Source: Candidatus Bipolaricaulota bacterium (GTDB taxonomy: Bacteria; Bipolaricaulota; Bipolaricaulia; M55B111). Taken from it: a DNA stretch of 64,000 bases. Below are positions 30,491 through 36,348 of this stretch, in pieces (position 1 is the stretch's first letter; every line of letters starts with the position of its first letter). Location: NCBI GenBank assembly GCA_021735245.1, contig JAIPHJ010000008.1, forward strand, positions 1-64,000, in the 5' to 3' direction. The position numbers and the translations under genes are program-made. The notes beneath the pieces are model-generated. The model was given only the letters and a program-made list of their open reading frames with translations, searched no databases and had not been told where the DNA came from.

Positions 30491-30997
30491 CTGAAATCAC
30501 CTCAATATAAATATTTACCAGTATACAATATAGCCCGGGAAGCCGAGGAAACCAAAAAATTAACAAATCGGTGCACTTTAAGAATTTATCTACTCTGGGT
30601 AACTTTCCATTTTGATTGCACTATTTAGTTTATACTCCAGGGAGGATAATATCAATTTTGCCATTTGCATTATCCCGGAACTACTGGTCCGCCCTGAACC
30701 CGGCTCGGAAGGTCTATCGCAGGATCACGAACCTCTCGAGCAAAACTGATCATCCATCTCGATCTTTGGCTGGATTACTCTGATAACCGGATAAATCGGT
30801 CCGGCCCTTTCCTGATGTCTTGGGACGATAATGTCTAAAATGCATCATTCTAGGTATAATAAATAATGGTAGCAATTGGTGACAAATTGAAAAAGATTAA
30901 GATCTTTGACAGTCCGGGATGAAAGCGTCTGACAAGGTGGCTGACGGCGACACAGAGTCGCCAAAAATCAAACCTTTGCAACTCATGGGAGCATCTA

Positions 30998-31213
30998 TAA
31001 AGGCAAACCGGGGGGGACCCGGGGCGCAAAGCTACGGCCTCTAAGAGTGAATACGAGAAAGGCACACCCACGGGCAACCTGGGGTCGCAAAACCACGGGT
31101 CCGTCCTGGTTCGCTGGTTCTCTGAGTTTATTGGGTTCGTTGAATTGATATAGCAATCAATTCGATAAACCCTTAACCCGACGAACTGAGAATGGATAGC
31201 CGGGTTGCCGTGG
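30998..31213 (+). promoter_or_regulatory. Cyclic-di-GMP-I (GEMM)-like riboswitch region with two 5'-half-like segments
   Basis: aaaGGCAAACCggggggacccggGGCGCAAAGCTACGGCC (30999-31039), GGGCAACCtgGGGTCGCAAAACCACGGGTCC (31072-31103), 3' part AATGGATAGCCGGGTTGCCGTGG (31191-31213). Confidence 0.75.
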
Positions 31214-31267
31214 CTCTTAGTGGTGGACGAGCTGCTGGATGCTCAACATCGCTAGGAGGTGCTTTCC

Positions 31268-31696
31268 ATGAGGAAACCATTTATCGTAGCGTTGGTGGTA
31301 ATTTTAGCAAGCACCTTATCCATAGCCGGTTTTGCCGCAGAGGATACCGCTGAAGCATATGCCAGCTTTAACGTAAATTCGACACTTTCCCTGCCCGTAA
31401 TAAATGGACAGGTAGTAGACTTTGGTGCTGTAACACCCGGGGAATCCTACGAGAAAAAAGGCGGTACCAAATTGAAAGTATCAGCTAACAGGGATTTAAG
31501 CTGGGTTATTACGACAAGCAAATCGAGCACGACATTGGGAGAGAACGAAATGGATGCCCTGGTGGTCGAACTTGGAACGGTTAGTGGTACAGGTAGGGAT
31601 AATAATATCAAGGTGGATTACATTTTGAACGTTCCGGAAGAGATGCCTTCCGGTAACCACACCGTTACAGTCACTTTTACCGCGTCAGCGGATTAA
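31268..31696 (+). CDS. Secreted beta-sandwich-like protein downstream of the riboswitch
   Basis: signal peptide MRKPFIVALVVILASTLSIAGFAAE; aggaggtgctttcc RBS before ATG at 31268. Confidence 0.7.
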   Translation: MRKPFIVALVVILASTLSIAGFAAEDTAEAYASFNVNSTLSLPVINGQVVDFGAVTPGESYEKKGGTKLKVSANRDLSWVITTSKSSTTLGENEMDALVVELGTVSGTGRDNNIKVDYILNVPEEMPSGNHTVTVTFTASAD

Positions 31697-33147: not shown

Positions 33148-36100
33148 ATGGGACATACTATTTTTAAAGAGAGCGTCCGGGTCACTCCGGGCAAACTGAT
33201 ATTGGTAATCTTTGCGGTATTAACTTTCCTGTTTATCTCTTCTTCAACTATACTGGCGGATGACGGTCCACCCTGGGTGGGGACTACTCTCGACGACCTA
33301 TCATACACGGAACAGGAGGGGTGGAAGGGCCTGGATGCGGAAGTGACTGTGACCTCGGATACAAACGACTTCACCGACGGGTACGTCGAGGTGGAGATAG
33401 CTGACGGAACCCGGTTCGACGAGCTACAGTTGGTGGACGGGACGGACCTGAGTGTTGACGGGAATGTAGTTTACTGGAATGGCGATCGGGTAGGCTCGAT
33501 CGACAATACCTACGACGGTTCGAACGGAAGACTCCGAATTAATTTTAGCGCTGCGGCCCCGCTTGAAAATTCTGGTTTCGAGTCGGGTGACCTATCCGGC
33601 TGGACGGTTAATACAGTCGGGAACAGTATGAGAGGACAGACATGGGCGGAGGGCCCTGACGTCCTGGGATTTACCGGTGATTCTGACCCCAGATATGATG
33701 ACCAGATTTCGGGCTCAGGGGTTACGGACGTTAATTCCGGCGCGGCCTACGAAGGGGAATACGGGCTGGAGCTTGAAATTACCGGTGATGTTGGTGCCGC
33801 TTACGGTACCGGTCACACCCCGTCTGTAACGAGCTCGACGTTTACCGCCGAGTCAGGTGATAGCCTGACCGTGAGGTGGAAGGCTTCCCAGACGAATGAC
33901 TACTACGATGTTTTTGGTTTCCTGTTCTCTGATTCCGACGGCGACGGAAAGATGGCCAATGAGAATTACCAACTTCTCTTTCACGAGATCGGCTCGGACA
34001 CCGGCGGATGGCAAAGCTTAACCACCTCTCTCACGATAGGGGGAGACAATCTCCGATTTAAGTTTCTGAACGGGGGCTACGACCGGTCCGGTAACATGGT
34101 CGTCGGGTCTTATCTCTGCATAGACGAGATAAAACTCCAGATTTCAAATACTACCACCGCCACTGAGGCAGTAGTTCAGTCCGTAATAGAACATTTGGAG
34201 TACAGAAATACCTCCGATAACCCCGGGGACGTAAAAAATTACGACCTAAACTTCAGAGAAAGCGACGGAGGGTTAGGGTATAACTCTGCCCGGATAGACA
34301 TCTCTCCGGAAAACGATCCACCAACCGGGGTAAGTTTGAGCGGCAACTCTGTGGACGAAAATACTCCGCCCGGGAATATCGTGGGGACTCTTTCGACGAC
34401 TGATCCGGACGATTCAAGTTTCACGTATAGCTTAATCGGCGGCGACACCGGGTCTTTCAGGATCAACGACGTCCAGCTTGAGACCGCCAGAGAGTTCGAT
34501 TACGAATCTCAAACGACCTATACCGTTCAGGTACAGTCCGATGACGGGAACGGCGGTACGTACGATCGGACGTTCACCATCTCCGTTAATGATGTCAACG
34601 ATAAACCGATTGCCGACGCCGGGCCCAGCAAGATAATTAGCCTTCACGAGACAGCTATCCTCGATGGGTCCAGCTCAGTAGATAAGGATGGCGATTCGCT
34701 TAGTTTCAGCTGGAGCCTTGTTCAGAAACCGTCGGACCTTTCGATCCCCGTTACCGTTCAGGATAACCTATCAAATCCTAACGCTTCCAGGGCCGAGTTC
34801 TTTCCTACAGGTAAGGGAGAAAATACGCGAGGCATTTACCGGTTTGAACTTGCTGTCTCGGACGGTAACGGAAATTCGGATACCGACGAACTTCAAATAA
34901 CGGTAACCGGCTCACCGAAAGATATAAAAGGCGACAGCCTGACTTCGAAAGGGGTTGAGGGTCCCGATCCCGGACCTGCCGACTTCACTGAAGAAGCGGA
35001 TCTCAAAGTCGACTTAAAAAACGTGAACTCCGGCACCCGGGGACTAATAGGTGGGTTTCAATACGATGAGGCGTACTTTCCTGAAGACAAAAGGTTTCCC
35101 GGCCCTGCAGTAAAATACGCCGACGTAAAAGCAATAGAGGTAAATTCCGGCAATGCACGGATCAGCGTACATTATACGGATCAGGAGGTATCTCAATTTA
35201 TCGAGGAGGGACTAAAGCTCTACGTCTATTACGACGGGAGCTGGTCCGAGGCAGATAATATAAATGTGGATACTTCCGACAACGTCGTACAGGGTGACGT
35301 AGCCGTTTCAAAACTCACCGGAAGCCCGATAACTGTCTCGGGGAACCAATCACCCCGCGCCGATTTCGCCTACGAACCATCCGAACCCGAAGTTAACGAG
35401 ACAATAAACTTTTACGGGGCCCTCTCCTCGGATTCGGACGGCTCTATAAGCACTTACAGGTGGGACTGGACGAACGACGGAAGGTACGATACTACTGCTT
35501 CTGCCCCTACCAGCACGCATTCGTTCCCGGATTACGACATCTATACCGTCAAACTGCAGGTCGTTGACGACGACGGGGGGACCGCGACCTTCACAAAAGA
35601 AGTTAACGTAGGTAAAAACACGAAGGAAGGGAAAGACGTTGACGTCCAGTTCGATAGTTTATCCTACAATTGTGGGTCCCTGAAAGGAGTTAAGTTAACG
35701 TTCAGCGAGGTAACCAGCACCGGCTCCACGGAAGTAAGGGTAAGTGACGAACCGTCATTTGCTCAGCCGTCCGGCATTACTTTCCTGGATTGTTTTTACA
35801 GGATAGAAACTACCGCTGGTTTCAAGGGCCCGGTAGGGATCGAGATGGACTACGACGACTCGTCATTGACCGAAACTCAGGAGAAAAACCTGAAATTGTT
35901 TAAATTGACCGAAGACGAAGGATGCCAGGCTATTACCGAATCACTTGACCCTGAAAAGAATGTAGTCAGCGGGAAGTCAGGTGGTTTTTCCTACTTTTCT
36001 CTCGGTTACGGCACAGGCACCTTGCCGGGTGAAGATTTGATTAACCACGGCCCAAACCCCGTCCCGGACGAGGGCTGTGACTTCTGGCTTGACCTACCGG

Positions 36101-36348
36101 AGGAAGCAAGCGGGGCGACACTTAGAATCTATGACGTAGACGGTAAGCCACTTTACGAAGTGGACCTGGATGCAAACCAGAGCAGGTATCCCTCCACCGG
36201 CAGGTGGAACCCGCAAGACGAAAACGGAAGTAAATTGGATACCGGCGTTTACATATATCGGGTGAGAGTCAAAGGAGATAATGGTTCCGATAGATGGTCG
36301 GAGGTGCACAGGCTGGTGCTGGATAGGTCGGACCCCTCTCAGGGATGA
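33148..36348 (+). CDS. Large secreted/surface protein with cadherin-like and PKD repeats and a FlgD-Ig-like C-terminus
   Basis: signal peptide; NDPPTGVSLSGNSVDENTPPG (cadherin-like), PRADFAYEPSEPEVNETINFYGALSSDSDGSI (PKD), C-term LRIYDVDGKPLYEVDL...TGVYIYRVRV. Confidence 0.85.
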   Translation: MGHTIFKESVRVTPGKLILVIFAVLTFLFISSSTILADDGPPWVGTTLDDLSYTEQEGWKGLDAEVTVTSDTNDFTDGYVEVEIADGTRFDELQLVDGTDLSVDGNVVYWNGDRVGSIDNTYDGSNGRLRINFSAAAPLENSGFESGDLSGWTVNTVGNSMRGQTWAEGPDVLGFTGDSDPRYDDQISGSGVTDVNSGAAYEGEYGLELEITGDVGAAYGTGHTPSVTSSTFTAESGDSLTVRWKASQTNDYYDVFGFLFSDSDGDGKMANENYQLLFHEIGSDTGGWQSLTTSLTIGGDNLRFKFLNGGYDRSGNMVVGSYLCIDEIKLQISNTTTATEAVVQSVIEHLEYRNTSDNPGDVKNYDLNFRESDGGLGYNSARIDISPENDPPTGVSLSGNSVDENTPPGNIVGTLSTTDPDDSSFTYSLIGGDTGSFRINDVQLETAREFDYESQTTYTVQVQSDDGNGGTYDRTFTISVNDVNDKPIADAGPSKIISLHETAILDGSSSVDKDGDSLSFSWSLVQKPSDLSIPVTVQDNLSNPNASRAEFFPTGKGENTRGIYRFELAVSDGNGNSDTDELQITVTGSPKDIKGDSLTSKGVEGPDPGPADFTEEADLKVDLKNVNSGTRGLIGGFQYDEAYFPEDKRFPGPAVKYADVKAIEVNSGNARISVHYTDQEVSQFIEEGLKLYVYYDGSWSEADNINVDTSDNVVQGDVAVSKLTGSPITVSGNQSPRADFAYEPSEPEVNETINFYGALSSDSDGSISTYRWDWTNDGRYDTTASAPTSTHSFPDYDIYTVKLQVVDDDGGTATFTKEVNVGKNTKEGKDVDVQFDSLSYNCGSLKGVKLTFSEVTSTGSTEVRVSDEPSFAQPSGITFLDCFYRIETTAGFKGPVGIEMDYDDSSLTETQEKNLKLFKLTEDEGCQAITESLDPEKNVVSGKSGGFSYFSLGYGTGTLPGEDLINHGPNPVPDEGCDFWLDLPEEASGATLRIYDVDGKPLYEVDLDANQSRYPSTGRWNPQDENGSKLDTGVYIYRVRVKGDNGSDRWSEVHRLVLDRSDPSQG

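Follow-up and report, generated by a model that had tools for sequence, protein, structure and literature searches.

What arrangement of RNA places two c-di-GMP-I 5' halves in front of a single visible 3' half? The question is raised by the leader of the gene at 31268..31696 in the window, by which we mean the whole stretch of 64,000 nucleotides of Candidatus Bipolaricaulota DNA (class Bipolaricaulia) that was analysed; all features described here lie on its plus strand. An earlier note had described this leader as a c-di-GMP-I (GEMM-I) aptamer with an unusual doubling of the 5' half, of which the first copy was canonical, and both points were borne out. RF01051 matches 31051-31212 with 48 bits (gathering score, 35), which is the sole Rfam match over threshold in the 64 kb, and a permissive scan places a separate canonical 5' half at 30993-31040 (RF03167, 23 bits, P3 deleted). 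Two further details required revision. The second 5' half, said to lack the small hairpin, starts at ~31052 rather than 31072 and does contain P2, the 3' side of the hairpin having been mistaken for the start. The 3' half taken to be the only clear one is followed by a second c-di-GMP-I 3' half, CTCTTAGTGGTGGACGAGCTGCTGGATGCTC (31214-31244), which starts one base past the end previously assigned to the element (31213), is part of the alignment to the covariance model introduced below and has verified pairs.

Together, these elements describe one aptamer inside another: the outer P3 arm encloses a complete inner aptamer (31052-31213), and the complete outer aptamer extends over 30989-31244. CTCTTAGTGGTGGACGAGCTGCTGGATGCTC pairs perfectly with GAGCATCT (30989-30996, P1) and with CTAAGAG (31041-31047, P3 extension); its GATGCTC end matches the GAGCATC that directly precedes the first 5' half, and its CTCTTAG matches the CTAAGAG that directly follows it. 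In the RNA, the outer P1 5' strand GAGCAUCU (30989..30996) forms 8 bp with 31237-31244, the first of the covarying helices. The outer 5' half (30997..31039) contains G20 (31002), the P2 hairpin (31003-31027), A47 (31028) and the P3 5' strand (31030-31039), and the P3-extension strand CUAAGAG (31041..31047) forms 7 bp with 31214-31220. The outer 3' half (31214..31244) supplies the P3 extension (31214-31220), the P3 3' strand (31222-31233), C92 (31235) and the P1 3' strand (31237-31244). Base-by-base inspection gave 8/8 pairs in the outer P1, 2 + 5 in P2, 4 + 2 + 2 in P3 and 7/7 in the P3 extension, and, for the checked segments of the inner aptamer, 3 in P1, 2 + 4 + 2 in P2, where a GCAA loop and a single bulged C are found, and 3 + 3 in P3. 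Given that the inner aptamer is inserted into the outer P3, the outer P3 and P1 can be closed only around it. We consider this nested architecture, as read from the sequence, to be close to certain.

Both window aptamers carry the ligand-pocket residues G20, A47 and C92, the inner one at 31061, 31089 and 31208. Its P2 (31062-31088) includes the hairpin CCCA(c)GG[GCAA]CCTGGG at 31067-31083 with the GCAA loop at 31074-31077, and the outer P2 loop, GGGGA, is no clean GNRA loop; most relatives have GAAA or another GNRA loop at the outer site. The inner P3 loop holds a GTTC-rich hairpin of ~88 nt (31105..31192), which the model alignment treats as an insert; other copies have comparable insertions at this position. 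This hairpin is built from a degenerate 9-nt GTTC repeat (GRGTTCNTW), as are hairpins in the inner P3 loops of L183, L184, L191, L203, L204 and L210, and all three exact triple-unit matches in the window's own genome lie in riboswitch P3 arms. A riboswitch-specific repeat was ruled out, however, as the element is dispersed in the class, with up to 106 matches per genome in family f2.

With regard to known classes, P1, P2 and P3 of the outer and the inner aptamer all covary, as expected for c-di-GMP-I (RF01051). The outer aptamer escapes Rfam because its halves stand ~170 nt apart. Assignment to c-di-GMP-I-GGC (RF03167), a class of the same clan whose cut-off is passed by many aptamers of this phylum, was ruled out for the window copy: it scores 47 bits against a gathering score of 59, and A47 is present where the GGC of the class name presumably denotes G47. 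The leader is also distinct from a tandem of two complete aptamers in succession, the outer 3' half coming only after the inner aptamer, and from the cAMP-GMP variant with A at position 20, both window sites having G.

Is the second 3' half a product of chance? The phylum was represented by 100 genomes, all of the class Bipolaricaulia. A pattern search for two 5' halves without a 3' half between them gave matches in 11 of these genomes, spread over 8 of the 39 genera, compared to 1 match for the reversed control, and an outer 3' half was located downstream in each full-length example that was read. An exact-pattern scan of named genomes gave, among the matches listed, mostly chance matches. 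RNAalifold applied to the full leader mixed aptamer and alternative states, and for this reason we drew up the nested structure manually before testing it. The resulting covariance model, R1, was built on a MAFFT alignment of 12 copies, all from genera other than that of the window. Along its entire length (model positions 1-176), R1 aligns to 30988-31244 of the window, with 102.6 bits and an E-value of 3e-24. Across the class, single aptamers reach up to ~74 bits and nested copies 80-187 bits; matches at 74-76 bits in one genome (G043), considered as nested copies, turned out to be tandem. Combining R1 with confirmation by eye yielded ~45 nested copies in 28 of the 100 Bipolaricaulota genomes, representing 17 genera and 5 of 9 families. 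Among these are a second copy in the window's own genome on another contig (C58:33816-34060), the counterpart of the window copy in a relative of the same genus (L047), and copies in Candidatus Acetothermia (L068; G107) and in a further Candidatus Bipolaricaulota (L120; G135).

Some members show variations on the arrangement. At L120:815-2860, three consecutive genes each have their own nested riboswitch, and similar two- or three-unit arrays are found at L171, L172, L177, L179, L183/L204 and L184. At L206:1201-1316, a short hairpin replaces the inner aptamer and the outer aptamer and expression platform are the same, providing a natural outer-only control.

The nested helices are supported by compensatory changes. 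In the 12-copy MAFFT alignment, which was not fitted to the nested structure, 93.3% of cells are paired and 16 pairs contain double changes, with 39 double-change cells compared to 13 in shuffles and at most 40% pairing when the structure is slid. The corresponding values for 41 distinct copies are 92.5% paired cells, double changes at 25 pairs and in 181 cells (55 in shuffles), and at most 41% pairing in slid structures, figures to be read with the leaning towards the nested structure that comes from an alignment fitted to it. The P3-extension helices differ wholesale between groups and match within copies (GGGCUGC/GCAGCC, AGGCAG/CUGCCU, GGUAUG/CGUACC and CUAAGAG/CUCUUAG). When pairing within copies was compared to pairing between copies (41 copies), the nested helices gave z-scores of -6.8 to -8.0, the latter for the P3 extension, and the inner P3, serving as positive control, gave -10.3. 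Since a model derived solely from other genera recognises the window, and since the helices covary, a chance origin of the second 3' half is excluded.

How might this structure control the downstream gene? The outer P3 3' strand (CCUAAUGGUGG type) can alternatively pair at or just before the Shine-Dalgarno sequence (ACCAUUAGGAGG type) in nearly every copy with a readable start. In the window, CUCUUAGUGGUG (31214-31225), the strand common to the outer P3 and this alternative hairpin, forms 12 contiguous pairs with the expression-platform strand CAUCGCUAGGAG (31247-31258), covering AGGAG of the Shine-Dalgarno sequence AGGAGGUG (31254..31261), which is conserved in the copies. The hairpin appears in the free minimum-energy fold of the window, and its strands match within copies (-17.3 versus -15.9 when permuted, sd 0.24). 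A further helix, P0, forms between the start-codon region and the bases directly 5' of P1: in the window, CUCAUGG (30982..30988) forms 7/7 Watson-Crick pairs with CCAUGAG (31266..31272) and thereby sequesters the AUG at 31268-31270. P0 covaries as well (GCCUC/GAGGC, AGUCGCU/AGCGACU, UGUCCUC/GGGGACA), with a matching value of -12.65 in 41 copies compared to -9.53 when permuted (sd 0.38). In many family f2 copies, for example in L171 before 1501, P0 is preceded at a distance of 10-30 nt by an additional perfect hairpin (GCAGCGGAYGGYCCGCTGCAA type). Forcing the nested fold raises the mean predicted accessibility of the Shine-Dalgarno sequence from 0.17 to 0.52, and 34 of 40 copies show an increase. 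For the window copy, the AUG becomes fully free and the Shine-Dalgarno accessibility rises just from 0.01 to 0.24. By secondary-structure energies alone, the forced fold costs ~19 kcal/mol on average and 11 kcal/mol in the window relative to the free ensemble, and because of this cost the nested fold must have help from ligand, tertiary contacts or kinetic trapping.

From the hairpin at the Shine-Dalgarno sequence, the matching of P0 and the rise in accessibility, we infer that translation is on when ligand is present; judging by the topology, the ON switch would also be cooperative. The leader of the gene at 31268 is probably a nested double c-di-GMP-I riboswitch acting as a two-site, hierarchical translational ON switch. 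Counting against this reading are the energy cost, the modest rise in the window copy, the imperfect outer P2 loop of the window and the sequestering of the AUG by P0. In the mechanism that we propose, the inner aptamer would fold first while transcription is under way, bind c-di-GMP and keep the outer P3 halves together. The outer site would form next, bind a second ligand and lock the outer P3, which would withdraw the P3 3' strand from the Shine-Dalgarno hairpin. Translation of a secreted, fibre- or matrix-like protein would then be turned on by c-di-GMP, with a dose response that is steeper and AND-like compared to that of a single aptamer. A more far-reaching version, which we hold tentatively and put a little short of an even chance, is that the fold order of the nested aptamers enforces inner-to-outer binding and so a cooperative AND gate on one platform, that some members respond to two ligands (cGAMP at an outer A20 site, c-di-GMP at an inner G20 site), and that P0 constrains the first codons.

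Readable nested copies are followed by proteins of 130-200 aa with a signal-peptide-like N-terminus, most of which contain FDFGxIxAG...SNTxW, and the downstream proteins of other copies share 24-34% identity with the 142-aa window protein (MRKPFIVALVV...), forming one coherent, if diverged, secreted family. AlphaFold2 predicts a beta-sandwich for the window protein (pLDDT 85). A Pfam search returned no family for it, and Foldseek matches are weak, the best with an E-value of ~1e-3. Weak as they are, these structural and profile matches point in the direction of fibre subunits, namely bundling pili (7ueg), Csu and type 1 pilins, cannulae (9h8b) and TLP-1 (9ikj), with TLP-2 (9ikk) at a weak E-value of 0.05. 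The product is probably a secreted fibre or matrix subunit. Approximately 1.5 kb downstream of the riboswitch gene, the window encodes a 1066-aa secreted protein (33148-36348) with PKD, cadherin-like and FlgD_ig-like domains, which possibly belongs to the same surface programme. On contig C58 of the same genome (L210 (G000:C58), ~34.8-35.6 kb), copies of a ~110-aa protein (MQTT..YYKDEDEYLIDKVEEKANRERKSKSAV..) are found behind single c-di-GMP-I aptamers.

Do both sites sense a ligand? It might be that a single aptamer senses, with the other, inner or outer, serving as a structural spacer that stiffens the outer P3. An outer-type aptamer in one genome (G012:C20) contains a short hairpin where the inner aptamer would be, so that the inner one is dispensable at least once, and inner P3 loops tolerate large GTTC-rich hairpins. 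On the other hand, G20, A47 and C92 are kept by the inner aptamer in 42 copies (and by the outer in 35), most inner aptamers retain a GNRA-type P2 loop, and a spacer has no need of a ligand pocket; we therefore rate this explanation as improbable, although it fares best among the alternatives to a switch with two working sites.

A second possibility starts from the pocket variants. In seven outer copies (genus g26 and two others), position 20 is occupied by A; six of these retain A47 and C92, and the corresponding inner aptamers all keep G20 (L120:2666-2857, L179:1501-1689, L179:2514-2707, L183:1501-1744, L184:1501-1752, L189:1501-1682 and L205:1141-1385). We take G20A to be the specificity change known from cAMP-GMP riboswitches. 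A 2022 review (PMC9481103) describes a nucleotide substitution of this type in the binding pocket. In such copies, the outer site could sense 3',3'-cGAMP and the inner site c-di-GMP, which would create a gate for two ligands. A20 aptamers can, however, be promiscuous, and the explanation is inapplicable to the window copy with its outer G20; all in all, we regard it as unlikely, marginally more so than the spacer.

The earlier note had also suggested a switch in which the two 5' halves take turns pairing with one 3' half. The outer P3 strand can indeed pair with the inner 3' half, and five such pairs were chosen by RNAalifold. The pairing of CCACGGGCAACC with GGTTGCCGTGG, which the note had pointed out, is present and prevails when the window segment is folded in isolation, but it finds no family-wide match (z +1.4). 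Competing halves should match within copies, yet in the 41 copies the outer 5' half and the inner 3' half pair no more strongly than permuted ones (the P3 strand gives z +1.1, and the half taken as a whole +4.1, which points the wrong way), in contrast to -6.8 and -8.0 for the nested pairing. Competition was rejected on these grounds, to which the existence of the second 3' half adds, and we give it very little credence. Least credible of all is the suggested degenerate tandem with a functionless, decaying first 5' half: the outer half is a weak 23-bit fragment to RF03167, the window P2 loop is imperfect and ordinary tandems occur in the class (G043), but every 5' half is matched by a covarying 3' half of its own, the two pairs being nested in 41 distinct copies from different genera, the outer ligand residues are conserved, and decay would have erased the matched P3-extension helix.

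We next consider how widely the nested double riboswitch is distributed. No nested unit was detected with R1 among 195 genomes of the Pelotalea class, 291 genomes of the class to which a Lachnospiraceae genome (G126) belongs, 38 non-Bipolaricaulota genomes of a mixed set, or 193 genomes of the phylum of an Omnitrophota locus (L061; G104), a set that included no positive control. Among ~680 genomes of other groups, no match scored above ordinary tandems, with the stricter filters of large searches, which may miss rare or diverged nested units. The best outside matches that were inspected (71-73 bits) are tandems or single aptamers; L219 and L227, the highest among them, were ruled out as nested, being ordinary tandems with their own 3' halves. 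A search of the mostly open-access literature returned no description of a nested riboswitch or aptamer and no riboswitch paper on Bipolaricaulota, and the word nested is absent from the 2022 tandem-riboswitch review, whose passages on arrangement, as far as consulted, list only side-by-side ones (PMC9481103). The nested c-di-GMP arrangement is conserved across one candidate phylum, and it was not found in the searchable, mostly open-access literature.

Natural multi-aptamer riboswitches have been described as side-by-side arrays, and a conserved aptamer within an aptamer would demonstrate coupling by topology: the inner site is completed before the outer one can exist, with no reliance on tertiary contacts or independent expression platforms. 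Such an RNA offers a test of cooperativity in a natural molecule, as well as a design rule for synthetic switches, and illustrates why scans with covariance models miss one half. It might also connect c-di-GMP with a secreted, fibre-like protein family in an uncultivated phylum whose surface biology is little known.

The closest relatives of the nested RNA are the riboswitches of RF01051, with which both window aptamers share the P1/P2/P3 plan as well as G20, A47 and C92. Known members stand alone or side by side, whereas here a complete aptamer replaces the P3 loop of another. Tandem c-di-GMP-I riboswitches are represented by 347 doublets and 12 triplets in the review (PMC9481103) and by the triple tandem Bc3-5 (PMC4759541). 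Like the nested RNA, they place two aptamers for one ligand in one leader, which likely sharpens the response. Their copies are sequential, however, each being finished before the next begins, while the nested form runs from the outer 5' half through the whole inner aptamer to the outer 3' half and, unlike the tandems, has one expression platform shared by both aptamers. The glycine double-aptamer riboswitch likewise couples two aptamers of the same class to one expression platform, with the aptamers adjacent rather than nested. A further parallel comes from twin-ribozyme group I introns, in which a functional RNA is inserted into a peripheral stem of a related RNA, as in the nested riboswitch; these are ribozymes in eukaryotic rDNA introns and not ligand sensors.
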